Positions 247 through 8,023 of a stretch of DNA of 36,392 nucleotides are shown here, one piece after another. Under the pieces are notes generated by a model. That model made no database searches and was not told the origin of the DNA. It was given only the letters and a program-made list of their open reading frames with translations. How positions within the stretch are numbered: position 1 is the first letter of the stretch; every line of letters starts with the position of its first letter. Location of the stretch: positions 1-36,392 of the IMG/VR virus record IMGVR_UViG_3300010392_000555; one strand, given 5' to 3'. This DNA is from a virus. Position numbers and translations under genes: made by a program.

Positions 247-624
247 ATGAAAAAAACCCGTAAGAAACCCGTCAAGCATGAGGAACTATTGCAAAAAGAC
301 GTGGTTGAGTTGCTTCTGACGTATGAGGCGCAGAGAAAACTAACCTTCACGGCTGTGACAAACAATGTGCCTTATACAGGTTGGAAAGCAATCAAGAGCA
401 CCGAGAAATTTAAGGAACTTGGTATGCGTCCCGGCTTTCCTGACATGGCGATATTCAGGTTTGAAGGGTTACCTATATTCATTGAATTGAAAAGCAAAAA
501 GGGGCAACTACAGGACAACCAAGAAGACTGGCGCGACACACTGCAAGCCATGGGTTTTAGCTGGTATCTCATTCGCAGCGTTGATGACGTGAAAGAGGTA
601 TTGAAGAAAGAGGGTGTAGTATGA
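247..624 (+). CDS. VRR-NUC domain nuclease
   Basis: This 125-aa protein matches the small stand-alone VRR-NUC nucleases common in phages. The family core is visible: a G-x-PD motif with Asp66, the E-x-K pair Glu80/Lys82 in the segment PIFIELKSKKG, and Gln92 in the following helix, then a G-x-x-x-x-x-x-R-S strand near the C terminus. These fit the PD-(D/E)xK catalytic core, so a metal-dependent DNA nuclease, possibly acting on branched DNA, is expected. The ATG at 247 follows a weak ribosome site (GTGAG). The stop overlaps the start of the next gene (621), so the two are probably co-translated. The N-terminal stretch is very lysine-rich. The family call is firm; the substrate is not known. Confidence 0.85.
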   Translation: MKKTRKKPVKHEELLQKDVVELLLTYEAQRKLTFTAVTNNVPYTGWKAIKSTEKFKELGMRPGFPDMAIFRFEGLPIFIELKSKKGQLQDNQEDWRDTLQAMGFSWYLIRSVDDVKEVLKKEGVV

Positions 625-1928
625 AAAGGGTTTATAAAGAGACAAATGTTTATGATGCTTCAATAAAGCGACTTGATTTTATATTTGAAACTTTTGAGCG
701 CATATATTTGTCATTTTCAGGGGGCAAAGACAGTGGAGTCTTGCTCAATTTAGTTTTGGACTACATGAAGGAACGGTCCATTGATCGGAAGATAGGGGTT
801 CAGATTCTAGACAATGAAGCAAACTATGAATACTCCCTTGAGTTTATGCGCCAGCTTTTGGATGCAAATAGAGACTATCTCGATATTTACTGGTGCTGTC
901 TCCCCATAACCTTACCCTGCACGGTTTCTTCTTATGAGGTTGATTGGCAATGCTGGGGTATTGATGATGAACACCGCTGGGTCCGCCCAATGCCTGATAT
1001 GGATTATGTGGTTAATATAGACAATCACCCCTTTGGGGATATGTTTGAAGAAAATATGAACTATGACCATTTTTGGGATATGTTTTCAGAGTGGTACAGC
1101 CAGGGCAAACCTACCGCCAATCTTATTGGTATAAGGACGGACGAAAGTCTGAACCGTTTTCGCGCAATAATGAACGAGCGCAAAGAAACGATGAAGGGTA
1201 TGCAATGGACGAAAAGGAATACAAAACATTCTTATAATTGCTACCCCATTTATGATTGGCGGACCCGTGATATATGGGTTGCTAACGCAAAGTTTGGATG
1301 GGACTACAATAAACTATACGACACCTTTTATATGGCTGGCGTCCCAATAGGAAAAATGCGTGTCGCAAGCCCCTTTATGTCAGAAGGGAAATCATCATTA
1401 AATCTTTACCGGGTTATTGATGGGCATACATGGGCGAGGCTTTGCGCACGGGTTGCGGGCGCAAACTTTGTGGCGCACTACGGCAAACAACTAGATTACA
1501 AAAGCGTTAAGCTGCCGGATGGTCACACTTGGAAGTCGTTTGTTAAATTCCTCTTAGACACATTACCGTCCGGCCCAGCTATAAATTTTAAGCAGCGCTT
1601 CATTCAGTCCATTAAGTTCTGGGGCAGGAAGGGGCGCGGGTTAGCAAATGAGGTTATTGCAGAACTTGATAAGCATGGCGTGCGCTTTACACTTAACGGC
1701 GTAACACCTCATGGGGGGAATTCTCTTAAAAGAGTTGTTATAAAAACACCGCCTGATCATGTTGATTTTCTGTCTGGGAACAATAGCGCTGTCACGTCAT
1801 GGAAAAGATTTGCGCTAACTATTCTTAAGAACGATCACACTTGCAAATATATGGGGCTTGCGCCGACTAAAGAGCAGGCTTTGAGGCAACGGGAAATTCA
1901 AAAAAAATACAGTGGGATAAAATCATGA
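621..1928 (+). CDS. IbrA/YbdN-type PAPS-reductase-like protein (DUF3440)
   Basis: This 435-aa protein has an N-terminal adenine-nucleotide alpha-hydrolase (PP-loop) fold, with the ATP-binding motif SGGKDS at residues 33-38. It matches phosphoadenosine phosphosulfate reductase-like proteins of the IbrA/YbdN group. Its C terminus carries a TSWKRFALTILKND motif at about 392-405, as in DUF3440 proteins. Real PAPS reductases are shorter and feed cysteine synthesis. In this group, as in DndC-type enzymes, the PP-loop domain is thought to activate a substrate by adenylation, but the substrate is unknown. It overlaps the VRR-NUC gene by 4 bases and the cupin-ParB fusion by 4 bases, so they form one operon. 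IbrA-type genes normally pair with an IbrB (ParB-like) gene, which is what follows. Confidence 0.85.
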   Translation: MKRVYKETNVYDASIKRLDFIFETFERIYLSFSGGKDSGVLLNLVLDYMKERSIDRKIGVQILDNEANYEYSLEFMRQLLDANRDYLDIYWCCLPITLPCTVSSYEVDWQCWGIDDEHRWVRPMPDMDYVVNIDNHPFGDMFEENMNYDHFWDMFSEWYSQGKPTANLIGIRTDESLNRFRAIMNERKETMKGMQWTKRNTKHSYNCYPIYDWRTRDIWVANAKFGWDYNKLYDTFYMAGVPIGKMRVASPFMSEGKSSLNLYRVIDGHTWARLCARVAGANFVAHYGKQLDYKSVKLPDGHTWKSFVKFLLDTLPSGPAINFKQRFIQSIKFWGRKGRGLANEVIAELDKHGVRFTLNGVTPHGGNSLKRVVIKTPPDHVDFLSGNNSAVTSWKRFALTILKNDHTCKYMGLAPTKEQALRQREIQKKYSGIKS

Positions 1929-2845
1929 AAATTATTGATGTTGAAAATCTGCCAGAATCACGAAAGGTCATTTTTGGCACGGGCGTGAGTAATCGGATTT
2001 TATTAGAGAAGGACGGTTGTGGTTACACACTAACTCACACAACCGTATATCCAGGAGAACGGGCTTTTTGGCATTATAAAGATCACATTGAAAGCTGTTA
2101 TTGCATCAGCGGTATTGGCACTCTTGAATGCGCTCGAACAGGGGAAAAGCATACAATCACTCCTGGAATAACTTATGTTCTTGATGATTATGATGCACAC
2201 TATTTTGAGGCGCATGAACCAACAGTTTTGATTTGTGTTTTCAATCCTCCATTGCGGGGGGCAGAGGTTCACGAGGAAGATGGTTCATATCGTACAGGGT
2301 ACAAATCTCCTGTTTATGATGTTAGGGCTGTGCCAATTGAAAAGGTAACGGCTAATGACTACAACCCTAACAGCGTTGCGCCACCAGAAATGGAGCTACT
2401 AGAAACGTCTATTTGGGAGGATGGGTATACGCAGCCGGTTGTGGTGGTGAGAGACTTCGACAATGGCACATACGTTGTCGTGGATGGATTTCATAGATAC
2501 CTAACACTCAAAAACAGTAAGCGCATTAACGAGCGTGAGAATGGAATGCTTCCTGTTGTTATCTTAAACAAAGATATGTCAGACAGGATGGCCTCTACGA
2601 TTCGCCACAACCGAGCAAGGGGCACTCACAACATTGAACTAATGAGCACAATTGTTGCTGAGTTAGTGGAAATGGGGAAGGGTGATAGGTGGATTTGCAA
2701 GCACATTGGAATGTCTTCCGATGAGTTGTTGAGGTTAAAGCAAATTACTGGCCTTGCGGCTCTTTTTCAGAATCAGGACTTCTCTAAAAGTTGGGATGCT
2801 GAAGATTTTGAGGAGGCAATTTTAGAAGATGAGGCTTCCGTTTAA
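1925..2845 (+). CDS. Fusion: EctC-like (ectoine synthase-type) cupin + IbrB/ParB-like domain
   Basis: This 306-aa protein has two recognisable parts. Residues 1 to about 122 look like ectoine synthase (EctC): a cupin with YCISGIG at 59-65 and the family signature CVFNPPL at 104-110, followed by EVHEEDG at 114-120. Glu56, Tyr84 and His92 fall where the reported EctC iron ligands lie (from memory Glu57, Tyr85, His93). Residues from about 130 resemble ParB-like proteins of the IbrB/YbdM group, with DGFHR at 187-191 and RHNRARGTH at 227-235. The ATG overlaps the PAPS-reductase-like stop (ATGA), and the end overlaps the next start. No ectA or ectB is present, so it is unlikely to make ectoine for osmoprotection. 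The cupin may act on a small molecule or modified residue in concert with the PP-loop partner, which is inference. I do not know this fusion as a described architecture. Confidence 0.85.
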   Translation: MKIIDVENLPESRKVIFGTGVSNRILLEKDGCGYTLTHTTVYPGERAFWHYKDHIESCYCISGIGTLECARTGEKHTITPGITYVLDDYDAHYFEAHEPTVLICVFNPPLRGAEVHEEDGSYRTGYKSPVYDVRAVPIEKVTANDYNPNSVAPPEMELLETSIWEDGYTQPVVVVRDFDNGTYVVVDGFHRYLTLKNSKRINERENGMLPVVILNKDMSDRMASTIRHNRARGTHNIELMSTIVAELVEMGKGDRWICKHIGMSSDELLRLKQITGLAALFQNQDFSKSWDAEDFEEAILEDEASV

Positions 2846-3245
2846 GCGTGTGTGGCACCCTTACGAAAAATGGGAGGAAATCCATTTTAATATGTGGGGA
2901 ACGGTGGTTGATAGAAAAGATTTTCTAAGGCGGGCAATAGAGTTTACAGGGAACCATACTTTGTACGGGTCTTACATGATGCGCGTAGTGAAAGGGTGGC
3001 CGATTAGCTGTGAAAATGCGCTAACGGACAACACACTTAACAAAAGAGCATGGATAGGCCATGCCGCCTGTTCTTTGTATATGCGGTGTCCAGAGGACAT
3101 AACGCGGAAGGCTTGGGCGTTTTTGACAAATGAGCAACAATTACTGGCAAATAAAGAAGCACGGCGAGCAATTCAAGAATGGGCGGACCACTACAGAAAG
3201 GGTGGAGGAGTATATAAAGGTCTGGAAGACAAGATGCTATTATGA
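2829..3245 (+). CDS. Conserved hypothetical protein of the IbrAB-type cassette
   Basis: This 138-aa soluble protein is rich in Trp and basic residues. It has no signal peptide or membrane segment. Notable stretches are GWPISCENALTD at about 56-67 and an alpha-helical end with NKEARRAIQEWADH. It starts 17 bases inside the end of the cupin-ParB gene, so it is part of the same transcription and translation unit. I recognise its general look from phage gene neighbourhoods but cannot name a function. The last 116 bases overlap an open frame that continues into the next gene. Both frames look plausible as protein there, which is unusual. Confidence 0.7.
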   Translation: MRLPFKRVWHPYEKWEEIHFNMWGTVVDRKDFLRRAIEFTGNHTLYGSYMMRVVKGWPISCENALTDNTLNKRAWIGHAACSLYMRCPEDITRKAWAFLTNEQQLLANKEARRAIQEWADHYRKGGGVYKGLEDKMLL

Positions 3246-3555
3246 AGATATTCCAGATTGCGTGGACGCTTTGTTAGAACGATCTGGACGGGTTCCAAGT
3301 TACCGCCTTATTGCAATGCAAATATTACGAGGCGACCTAATGCTTTTAGGGCTAGGGTTTTCGTCCCCAGTTTCTAAATATTATTACGACCTTAAAAGAA
3401 AACCATCTAAGCAATTGGAGTTTAGGTTTAATGAGAACGCAGAAACCAGACACAGCAGCCATCCGCAGATCAATGGAATATTGGGCAAAGACAAACCCTC
3501 AATTCCTGGGAACCAACCTTTACGCTCAAATGCAAAGCACTTTGGACTGGATTGA
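3202..3555 (+). CDS. Small protein resembling the C-terminal part of DUF3440 proteins
   Basis: Taken from the GTG at 3202 this is 117 aa; an ATG at 3130 would add 24 residues and a 116-base overlap with the previous gene. Neither start has a well-spaced ribosome site. The segment VPSYRLIAMQILRGD (residues 31-45) resembles TSWKRFALTILKND near the C terminus of the PAPS-reductase-like protein at 621. The preceding KTRCYYEDIPD resembles the region before that motif in YbdN-type proteins, as I remember them. It therefore looks like a detached or duplicated C-terminal DUF3440 module working with the 621-3245 cassette. The last 125 bases overlap the next gene in another frame, so its true C terminus may be a run-on. 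Confidence 0.6.
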   Translation: MEEYIKVWKTRCYYEDIPDCVDALLERSGRVPSYRLIAMQILRGDLMLLGLGFSSPVSKYYYDLKRKPSKQLEFRFNENAETRHSSHPQINGILGKDKPSIPGNQPLRSNAKHFGLD

Positions 3556-6142: not shown

Positions 6143-6293
6143 CGTAAAGCTGCGTCTGGAAGTGATTTTCAGCAACAAAAACCACATTTCTGAGGAGGAC
6201 ATCACCCGGATTGCCAGCGAGCTTGCCGACAAGGCCCAGAAAATGGGGGCGGTGCGGAAGGGCACAACGGGGTGGAGTCGGTCAAAGGAATGA
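6126..6293 (+). CDS. Small hypothetical protein (55 aa)
   Basis: ATG 6126 to TGA 6291-6293 gives a 55-aa protein: a beta-strand-like start (MPELPTVKLRLEVIF), a helix (SEEDITRIASELADKAQKMG) and a basic tail. Its stop overlaps the next start at 6290 (ATGA). It has no family I can name. The duplicated start at 5696 suggests this gene once followed directly after the replication-type gene. Confidence 0.6.
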   Translation: MPELPTVKLRLEVIFSNKNHISEEDITRIASELADKAQKMGAVRKGTTGWSRSKE

Positions 6294-8023
6294 TTGCAGT
6301 CTATGACCTGAAACACGCCCCGGTTACATTTGATTTCCTGAGTTTTTTAGCTGTTGCGGACTGCACCCGGCAGTTAATGGGCCATGATGGGATAGACCTT
6401 TACATTGTGGCAGGGGAATATCGCCAATGGTCAGCGCGAGACATGGAGACATCAGACGCAGAAAAGGAATGGCGGATTTACGGAATATTGTTGGAAAGCA
6501 CAAAACTACTACCCAGCATTCAATCCGTCCACATTACCAGAGAGCGGCCTTCTGTTTATGATTTCCCGGCTCAATACCATGACACCGGGGAAGTTCCATA
6601 CCTGCCGAAAGATGTGGTTCCGCTATATGAGCAAGGTGCTGACCCGCTGTGCTTCAAAGCCCCTGCCTTTGCCGAGGAAATCACCCCGCCTTGTGATGTT
6701 ACCTTAACCCTAAGAACAAGCCGGCACTTCCCAGAACGCAATGTGGACCTGGATGAGTGGTATAAATTCCACCAACACCTAAAATCCCAGGGTAAGACGG
6801 TGCTGGTTATCCCAGACCAGGAAGACCCCGGAGAATGGCAAAAATACGACTGGAAAGCCTACCTGCCAGCGGCCTACGATATTCGCTTGAGGTTTGCGCT
6901 GTATGAACAGGCGGAGATGAATTATTGCAGCGCCAACGGTCCATGCGCTGGGTTGTTCTACTCAAACGCCCCTTATTCTCTGTTTGATTCCACCCGTGGG
7001 GTATTTAGCCCAGAAAACTACGTTTTTGCCTATGGTCAATATGGCGGGCAGCATCCATGGGCGTTGCCTAATCAGTGCCTAAAGTGGGCGGATAGCAGCT
7101 TTACAACGCTGACATCTGACAACATCACAGACCATATCCCCCCAACAGCCCCGGCCATCAAGAAAACCCGTATCACTAAAGCGGAGATATTAGACCGCAC
7201 TCGAAACATTATGGATTCGGATATACCTTCATTGAAGTCTCTCAAAAACGTATGCCATGGAGAGACGGCTATAATTGTTGGGGGTGGGCCATCGCTTGCA
7301 GATCACATGGGAACGCTGCGGAAACTCTCAAAAAAAAGAGGGCATAAAATCCTCTGCACGAATAAAACCTACGATTACCTGATTAAACGTAACTTCGACC
7401 CATGGGCTGTGGTATTGTTGGACCCGCTGCAACACGTCGCGGACTATGTTAAACTGGCTACGCCGGAAACGAGGGTTTTTCTTGCAACTCAATGTCACCC
7501 GGACACATGGAAATCCGTAGAGCACACCAAACGCTATCATTGGATAGCCTCAGACAACCGGCATGGTGACAACTTCCCTCTTGATTGGATGCGGGAGAAT
7601 TACCCGGACAGAGAATGGGTCATTAATGGAGGGGGGAATACAGGCGGATTAAGGGCTATCTATTGCGCTTATGAGCTTGGATTCAGAGACTTCCACTTGA
7701 TTGGTTTCGACTCAAGCATGAAAGACGGCAGTTTATACGCCTATGACAAAGAACACCCAAAGGATGCCGCTGAAGGTCCGGCTACCCTGGAAATGAACGG
7801 CCATATCCAAGAGTTCTACACCAACGAGCACATGGCCAAGCAGGTAGAGAACTTCGAGGACATGCTAAAGCAGATATTCCTCTATCTGGACCAGGGGACA
7901 TGGGAGCCGATCAATATGACGGTTTACGGGGATGGTATGTTGCCTAGCCTCGCCGCAGCTTATGGTCTGCATGCTGACCCTGAGATGAACAAAAGATGGG
8001 CGAAAACAGAAAAAGGTGTATAA
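6290..8023 (+). CDS. DUF115 (MptE-like) protein, possible glycosyl- or nucleotidyl-transfer enzyme
   Basis: This 577-aa protein has a C-terminal half that matches the DUF115 / 6-hydroxymethylpterin diphosphokinase MptE-like domain. The motif TAIIVGGGPSLADH lies near residue 330, followed by ILCTNKTYDYLI, WAVVLLDP and a late NGGGNTGGLRA plus FHLIGFDSS block. In bacteria such domains occur in flagellin or surface-sugar transfer proteins. The N-terminal 300 residues are less clear and may be a second sugar-binding or Rossmann-like part. I chose ATG 6290 (ATGA overlap) over GTG 6272. It lies just upstream of the terminase genes, a common place for accessory genes. It may modify host surface or phage glycans; the substrate is unknown. 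Confidence 0.7.
   Translation: MIAVYDLKHAPVTFDFLSFLAVADCTRQLMGHDGIDLYIVAGEYRQWSARDMETSDAEKEWRIYGILLESTKLLPSIQSVHITRERPSVYDFPAQYHDTGEVPYLPKDVVPLYEQGADPLCFKAPAFAEEITPPCDVTLTLRTSRHFPERNVDLDEWYKFHQHLKSQGKTVLVIPDQEDPGEWQKYDWKAYLPAAYDIRLRFALYEQAEMNYCSANGPCAGLFYSNAPYSLFDSTRGVFSPENYVFAYGQYGGQHPWALPNQCLKWADSSFTTLTSDNITDHIPPTAPAIKKTRITKAEILDRTRNIMDSDIPSLKSLKNVCHGETAIIVGGGPSLADHMGTLRKLSKKRGHKILCTNKTYDYLIKRNFDPWAVVLLDPLQHVADYVKLATPETRVFLATQCHPDTWKSVEHTKRYHWIASDNRHGDNFPLDWMRENYPDREWVINGGGNTGGLRAIYCAYELGFRDFHLIGFDSSMKDGSLYAYDKEHPKDAAEGPATLEMNGHIQEFYTNEHMAKQVENFEDMLKQIFLYLDQGTWEPINMTVYGDGMLPSLAAAYGLHADPEMNKRWAKTEKGV

Follow-up and report, generated by a model that had tools for sequence, protein, structure and literature searches.

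What does a domain of the ectoine synthase (EctC) family do when it is joined to a ParB-like domain in a virus? The question is raised by an open reading frame (ORF) at positions 1925-2845 (+) of the IMG/VR virus record IMGVR_UViG_3300010392_000555. The whole 36,392-base record, which has P22-like structural genes, was analysed and is called the window here. The ORF is open from ATG to stop and encodes 306 amino acids. An earlier note on this DNA had described the product as an EctC-like cupin fused to a ParB-like domain and had proposed that the cupin was recruited either for another cyclisation or as a ligand sensor controlling the ParB part. The data support descent of this cupin from the EctC family and a dedicated place for it in an operon with the genes ibrA and ibrB. 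That it is a probably catalytic third component of the IbrAB system, acting on an altered substrate, is a reading to which we give about an even chance.

Identity of the fusion protein

Both halves of the protein were searched against profiles. Residues 1-123 matched Pfam Ectoine_synth (PF06339; E 1.2e-37, 129.4 bits, cut-off 27) and the fusion protein scored 129.7 bits with the NCBIfam ectoine synthase model (cut-off 128). This agrees with the ectoine synthase pattern that had been claimed for residues 1-122 with the segments CVFNPPL and EVHEEDG, which were located at residues 104-110 and 114-120. An AlphaFold2 model of the cupin half was confident to about residue 110, and its residues 1-112 overlaid the EctC structure 5bxx with a Z score of 19.4 and a root-mean-square deviation of 1.0. 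EctC structures ranked first in the fold search (Z 17.9-19.4), while the best non-EctC cupin reached Z 13.2. A different cupin family for the N-terminal domain was ruled out by the profile searches and the structure ranking, both of which gave EctC.

Residues 116-299 matched the ParB-like PHROG 2159 (E 4.9e-78), as expected from the ParB-like reading of this half, and the motifs on which that reading was built, DGFHR and RHNRARGTH, lie at residues 187-191 and 227-235. Phage relatives of this half carry the annotation IbrB; the window domain aligned with 30 other IbrB domains at 50-86% identity, with the conserved motifs DG[FY]HR and TIRHNRARG. The Pfam ParB_N match was slightly below its cut-off (25.6 vs 26.3 bits). 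A canonical ParABS ParB was not indicated by TIGR00180 (ParB/RepB/Spo0J; 21.8 bits, cut-off 58.45), nor was a free serine kinase of the SbnI/SerK type by the SbnI model (18.7 vs 350 bits) or, for the ParB half alone, by the SerK model (11.9 vs 380). Among solved structures the IbrB profile matched Noc and ParB, and SbnI and SerK weakly. It also matched designed helical repeat proteins of the PDB, one of them top-ranked, via its helix-turn-helix (HTH)-like part, and these matches were taken as chance. The structure model was poor in the IbrB half (block means of the local confidence score pLDDT 33-80, overall predicted template modelling score 0.44), so no fold claim is made for this half from the model; the fold lists were all cupins.

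The earlier note had allowed that the fusion might be an assembly error at about position 2300. A scan of IMG/VR viral contigs gave 186 relatives, and the best 80 of these 186 were kept. Cupin and IbrB formed a single ORF in 79 of the 80 loci (two ORFs in locus L022), and the same fusion was found in the cultured phages Gaia and Nebkiss; XCL1123 has both parts as adjacent genes. Because 79/80 loci and the phages Gaia and Nebkiss keep the same ORF, an assembly join is very unlikely and was rejected. The gene ibrA lay upstream in 79 of the 80 fusion loci, mostly overlapping or adjacent, although L025 and L028 have gaps of 87 and 322 bases; the contig of L072 begins too near the fusion to judge whether ibrA is present. 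At E <= 1e-5 the fusion protein had matches in 221 phage and 761 plasmid records; either half could give the match, so not every one of them need be IbrB. By the cupin alone, 5 phage and 120 plasmid records matched.

The fusion had been taken to be undescribed. It is already known by label, as GenBank KJ567043 and MN313256 name an 'ectoine synthase/ParB multidomain protein' (the label carried by phage Gaia). No paper describing it was found in the Creative Commons-licensed literature searched, to which extent the claim stood, and one may exist in print elsewhere. A 2025 survey of ParB-fold fusions (PMC12704722) does not mention cupin, ectoine, DUF3440 or IbrB in its main text.

Active site of the operon cupins

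Residues were compared across 140 unique EctC-type cupins. Of these, 76 belong to the operon (68 fused, 1 split and 7 stand-alone); the remaining 64, called cellular here, were drawn from genomes and plasmids and from a single phage record that is mislabelled, MT835761 (L087/L089). This record, titled 'UNVERIFIED: Bacteriophage sp.', had been considered as a further EctC-carrying phage and was rejected; it holds an EctB-like gene (by eye) and an ordinary EctC, is probably bacterial DNA, and its EctC is counted in the 64. Numbering is that of Paenibacillus lautus (P. lautus) EctC and residue roles were taken from PMC6344544. All 76 unique operon cupins were unchanged at Ser23, Arg25, Thr40, Tyr52, Glu57, Tyr84, His92, Glu114 and His116. 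The iron ligands Glu57, Tyr84 and His92 are thus present as residues in 76/76, with metal binding predicted, and a narrower description in which only the iron site was kept is superseded by this count. Phe106 was kept in 75 of the 76, being Trp in XCL1123; other exceptions were Cys104 to Ser in six of the seven stand-alone cupins and His55 to Arg in one fused cupin. In the window cupin the ligands are Glu56, Tyr84 and His92, aligned with the P. lautus ligands as the earlier note had placed them, and Ser22, Arg24, Thr39, Tyr51 and Phe106 are kept.

The residue list of that note had overlooked the absence of the catalytic Trp21. This residue was missing in 76/76 operon cupins and present in 63 of the 64 cellular rows, in 50 of them at its usual position and in 13 shifted. 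At the Trp place, two residues before Ser23, 62 of the 76 operon cupins have Phe, and the other 14 have Phe or Tyr at the shifted place, five residues before it; the window cupin has Gly20 at the Trp21 place and Phe17 at the shifted position. According to PMC6344544, Trp21 is conserved in 437 EctCs of ect clusters and also in 145 orphans, where its place is sometimes shifted; the excerpts of that paper give no Phe variant. The cellular exception, L309, is an EctC-type protein with Phe instead of Trp21 and a very long branch. Asn38, which contacts the carboxylate in EctC (PMC6344544), corresponds to Thr37 in the window, and Thr was found there in 63/68 fused rows. Because only 2/64 cellular rows have Asn (48/64 have His), Asn38 does not define the EctC family in this sample.

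In a 34-row alignment, A1, 24 of 123 cupin columns were invariant and 99 varied. Eight of the ten metal, substrate and product residues named in PMC6344544 were among the invariant columns (hypergeometric 2.5e-5); the count of ten includes Trp21 and Asn38, and a count of the eight only would leave both out. The median ratio of nonsynonymous to synonymous substitution rates (dN/dS) was 0.11 for the cupin and 0.016 for the IbrB part, from six usable pairs of one group of related contigs, window excluded. A degenerate relic was rejected because the active-site columns are invariant and dN/dS, in these six pairs, is low.

The window protein is therefore like EctC (PF06339; 5BXX, 5ONM/5ONN/5ONO) in fold, iron ligands, Ser23, Arg25, Thr40, Tyr52, Phe106 and the C-terminal FNPPL...EVH, and the operon cupins differ from EctC in lacking Trp21, in standing apart in the tree described below, and in lying in an ibrAB operon or being fused to IbrB with no ectAB seen. 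Among 28 scanned window ORFs none belonged by Pfam name to an EctA- or EctB-type family (acetyltransferase or aminotransferase), in a record that may be incomplete. The cupin is an EctC-family domain and should not be classed as an ectoine synthase, because Trp21 and the ectAB context were both looked for and were absent.

The ibrA-ibrB operon and its middle slot

The immediate neighbours of the fusion gene in the window are ibrA and a gene called geneC here, and the start of the fusion ORF overlaps the ibrA stop by 4 bp. The features are collected in the table below.

Table. Features of the ibrA-ibrB operon in the window
Feature	Position	Strand	Basis or remark
IbrA-like protein: PP-loop (PAPS-reductase superfamily) and DUF3440	621..1928	+	Pfam, PHROG 2302
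EctC-type cupin fused to IbrB (ParB/Srx-type), 306 aa	1925..2845	+	Pfam, PHROG, NCBIfam
EctC-family cupin domain	1925..2293	+	profiles, alignment, model
IbrB domain: ParB/Srx-type fold by sequence, then helical HTH-like part	2306..2803	+	Pfam, PHROG
geneC: all-helical, family without a name	2829..3245	+	overlaps fusion end; accompanies cupin
geneD: short, resembles part of IbrA	3130..3555	+	PHROG 15645; overlaps geneC by 116 nt

IbrA matched DUF3440 (E 5.6e-56) and PAPS_reduct (E 1.9e-10) of Pfam and PHROG 2302 (E 1.5e-110). In an alignment of 151 rows, the window and 150 of 235 unique sequences, the PP-loop SGGKDSG was kept, with Cys93 in 99% and Cys408 in 98%. Whole-genome searches found DUF3440 in few genomes (5/299 and 4/247). 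The geneC protein of the window had no Pfam or NCBIfam match and only a marginal PHROG match (best 0.00064, 1/36 members); its all-helical model (pLDDT 91) had no PDB fold match at E <= 0.001 and one close relative in BFVD, without a name. PHROG 15645 matched geneD (E 0.0036) and also IbrA (E 9.1e-35). The overlap of geneC and geneD (3130-3245, +) is in different frames and may be real, because a geneD-like protein in L028 starts with a similar YWQ segment.

The operon was followed through 279 loci with IbrB, near-duplicates and re-fetched copies included, of which the 269 with + strand genes were tabulated. The loci were picked by similarity to queries, so the counts are not prevalences. Neither cupin nor GNAT-like protein was detected beside ibrA-ibrB in 124 of the 269 loci. 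The order ibrA-cupin-ibrB-geneC-geneD was found in 80, window included, ibrA-cupin-ibrB in 5 and geneC-geneD-ibrA-cupin-ibrB in 4; a GNAT-like gene took the middle place (ibrA-GNAT-ibrB) in 37, seven of which have ibrA split into two ORFs, and lay elsewhere in the operon in 6, and 13 were rare or cut forms. A separate scan based on L247 placed 7/7 cupins between ibrA and ibrB, the query's own contig among them. After dereplication at 90% (116 loci), geneC was present in 21 of 22 cupin loci and in 2 of 94 others, and geneC and geneD accompany the cupin also where they lie upstream of ibrA (L253-L256). Cupin loci without geneC were the 3.2-kb contig L090 (= L264) and L247/L250-L252. In two loci, L188 and L194, the IbrB ORF has an N-terminal extension that by eye resembles an HNH homing endonuclease.

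Compared by description with the IbrA-IbrB pair (PHROG 2302 and 2159; E. coli K-12 YbdN-YbdM, where YbdN has DUF3440 and YbdM is ParB-like, PMC9068703), the window has both genes in the same order; the difference is that the 124 loci with the pair only have no cupin, geneC or geneD. Phage ParB folds fused to other domains are also reported in the survey cited above, where one acetyltransferase-ParB-fold fusion bound GTP (PMC12704722). Dnd/Ssp phosphorothioation (DndC and DndB) likewise sets a PAPS-reductase-like protein beside a ParB/Srx-type protein; it differs in that the DndC match was weak (PADLOC E 2.7e-6, among the five proteins in which Dnd genes were sought), and the NCBIfam DndC equivalog model TIGR03183 gave 20.2 bits against a cut-off of 290.4.

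In the dereplicated loci the cupin and the GNAT-like protein never occurred together (0/22 vs 19/94, Fisher 0.022), which is weak evidence for mutual exclusion. To explain the distribution of the GNAT label on the IbrB tree, 12 changes were required, no fewer than 9 of them by well-supported branches, so the GNAT came and went many times. The GNAT-like set comprised 40 unique rows: 38 profile matches together with L183 and L085, which escape the profile and were entered as 'no GNAT' in the locus tables. When eight GNAT candidates were scanned, L111, L133, L183, L229 and L085 were above the Pfam cut-off and L134, L148 and L160 below it. Proteins of this slot share the segment FY..G..F..R...IYDD..K.W (L111, L133, L143-L157, L159-L163, L165-L169, L228, L229, L239). 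That other loci have a GNAT-like protein at this place suggests that the slot takes interchangeable specificity subunits. On a plasmid of the archaeon Halomontanus rarus (L085), ibrA, ibrB, a GNAT with a canonical coenzyme A (CoA) loop and a second PAPS-reductase-family gene stand in a row.

A tree of 92 cupins (126 columns) separated 39 operon from 53 cellular cupins at 100/100, with many forks left unresolved. The stand-alone cupins L247 and L092, and less firmly L091 and L253, fell at the base of the fused ones. XCL1123 was nested within the fused cupins and its two-gene form is, as far as sequences tell, a secondary split. Mapped onto the IbrB tree, the presence of a cupin is explained by two changes: 21 rows form a single clade (100/97), and L247 belongs to a different IbrB lineage. 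A separate cupin gene between ibrA and ibrB was found in ten contigs with seven distinct sequences, and the cupin stop adjoins or overlaps the ibrB frame in all five of the stand-alone loci that were read (L083, L247, L253, L091, L092). The simplest account would be one EctC recruitment into the ibrA-ibrB slot, one transfer between lineages, fusion by an in-frame junction, and occasional splits.

Orphan EctCs resemble the operon cupins in lying outside ect clusters and in that the Trp place may shift (PMC6344544, and the 13 shifted cellular rows); they differ in that those 13 rows have Trp and none of the operon cupins do, and in that five plasmid genes with no ectAB within 3 kb (L319, L320, L321, L325, L326) have no adjoining ibrAB. 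Four of these, annotated 'ectoine synthase' on Burkholderia (L321), Streptomyces (L325), Aliiroseovarius (L326) and Agrobacterium (L319) plasmids, adjoin genes for AMP-ligase or adenylate-forming enzymes, acyl carrier protein (ACP), ketosynthase or acyl-CoA dehydrogenase, which suggests that they serve the biosynthesis of compounds other than ectoine. With orphan EctCs of two plasmids in AMP-ligase/ACP/acyl-CoA-dehydrogenase clusters, recruitment of the EctC family outside ectoine clusters would have parallels.

Outside the operon, the window encodes at 6272-8023 (+), upstream of the terminase, a protein of 583 aa whose MptE-like domain, of the 6-hydroxymethylpterin diphosphokinase type, scored 72.6 bits with Pfam (cut-off 34.6).

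What the cupin may do

The proposal of a recruited cupin held as far as the move away from ectoine synthesis is concerned, given the ibrAB operon, the lack of EctA and EctB types, the separate clade and the loss of Trp21; between cyclisation and sensing, the kept active-site residues make us lean towards catalysis. The cupin would bind Fe(II) and catalyse a reaction of the EctC type, the attack of an amine on an amide polarised by the metal, with loss of water. Its substrate would be one other than N-gamma-acetyl-diaminobutyrate and would be handled by the same operon. IbrA may activate this substrate with ATP through its PP-loop, IbrB may supply nucleotide triphosphate binding and perhaps nucleic-acid contact, and fusion of cupin and IbrB would keep the intermediate local. 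The product could be a small molecule, or a nucleotide or DNA, that bears a cyclic amidine. A more specific version, which is speculative and which we consider unlikely, sees ibrAB loci as phage-borne modification systems of modular build whose middle slot is exchangeable; together with IbrA, IbrB, geneC and geneD, the cupin would then close a cyclic amidine ring on an amine linked to a nucleotide or to DNA.

Several observations weigh against a catalytic third component of this kind. The residues kept in the operon cupins are also conserved in EctCs at large, and so show constraint and not which function is under it, and the cupin dN/dS is far higher than that of the IbrB part. Trp21 is lost, and in P. 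lautus EctC the W21A variant keeps 9.7% activity (PMC6344544). geneC occurs without a detected cupin in L224 and L088 and beside IbrB in phage Amjad_SA, and the IbrB tree nests the stand-alone locus L091 among the fused ones, contrary to a simple 'stand-alone first' order for L091. In the GNAT-like set, 33 of the 40 rows fit neither the canonical nor the RxxGxF CoA-loop pattern (2 were canonical, 5 RxxGxF), some of the 33 having near forms such as RKQGVL and RGKGVC. As most of these proteins are without the CoA-loop pattern, the slot need not hold an enzyme, and the idea that two enzymes alternate in the slot, one a GNAT like EctA and the other an EctC, is weakened.

In AraC-type cupins ligand binding switches a gene regulator, and the original study on IbrB reportedly dealt with co-activation of prophage gene expression. 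A ligand sensor, in which the cupin would bind ectoine, a similar solute or Fe but not turn it over, and would switch IbrB as a gene regulator, is a possible but less probable reading that we take as a serious rival, because the ectoine-contacting residues are kept (Ser23, Tyr52 and Glu57 in all operon cupins, Phe106 in all but XCL1123) and the catalytic Trp is not. The annotation of IbrB relatives as 'co-activator of prophage gene expression' (also in a table of PMC4490671) and the mostly missing CoA-loop pattern of the GNAT-like slot proteins fit it too. Thr40, however, is assigned to proton transfer in EctC (PMC6344544) and is invariant in the operon cupins, the three iron ligands fit an enzyme at least as well, and in the seven unique cases of a free-standing cupin it could not act on IbrB in cis.

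The cupin might instead be a dimer interface or a scaffold joining IbrA and IbrB, its active site kept by descent. EctC is a dimer (PMC6344544), and bridging would fit a gene that lies between ibrA and ibrB, with ends that overlap or adjoin; yet the active-site columns are invariant while most other cupin columns vary, and the many ibrA-ibrB loci with neither cupin nor GNAT detected do without such a part, which makes an assembly module quite improbable. Metabolic cargo, with the phage making ectoine to protect the infected cell, draws on the family membership of the cupin. The earlier note had held that EctC is unable by itself to produce ectoine from ordinary precursors, to which must be added that Halomonas elongata (H. 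elongata) EctC can cyclise glutamine to ADPC in a side reaction (PMC6344544), so that ADPC could also be the cargo product. The absence of EctA- and EctB-type families from the scanned ORFs, the recurrent linkage of the cupin to ibrA, ibrB, geneC and geneD, and the missing Trp21 make cargo very unlikely.

Stand-alone operon cupins, the loss of Trp21, the GNAT alternative in the slot and the travelling of geneC and geneD with the cupin are what this analysis adds. Two phage papers (PMC10434257; PMC10232697, for XCL1123) class a PAPS-reductase-type gene as an auxiliary metabolic gene. XCL1123 of PMC10232697 carries the ibrA-cupin-ibrB operon, and a metal-enzyme-like cupin tied to that operon argues for a dedicated multi-gene system and not an auxiliary metabolic gene. 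The finding is of interest because the chemistry of IbrAB becomes testable: the cupin is a handle on it, with an EctC-type pocket, a defined change of Trp to Phe or Tyr, and a ligand that can be sought, and phage Gaia, isolated on the laboratory strain M. smegmatis mc2 155, carries the operon, making the system itself testable. If the modification reading were true, phages would have taken ectoine-type chemistry out of osmoprotection and put it to use in modifying their genomes or in taking over the host.

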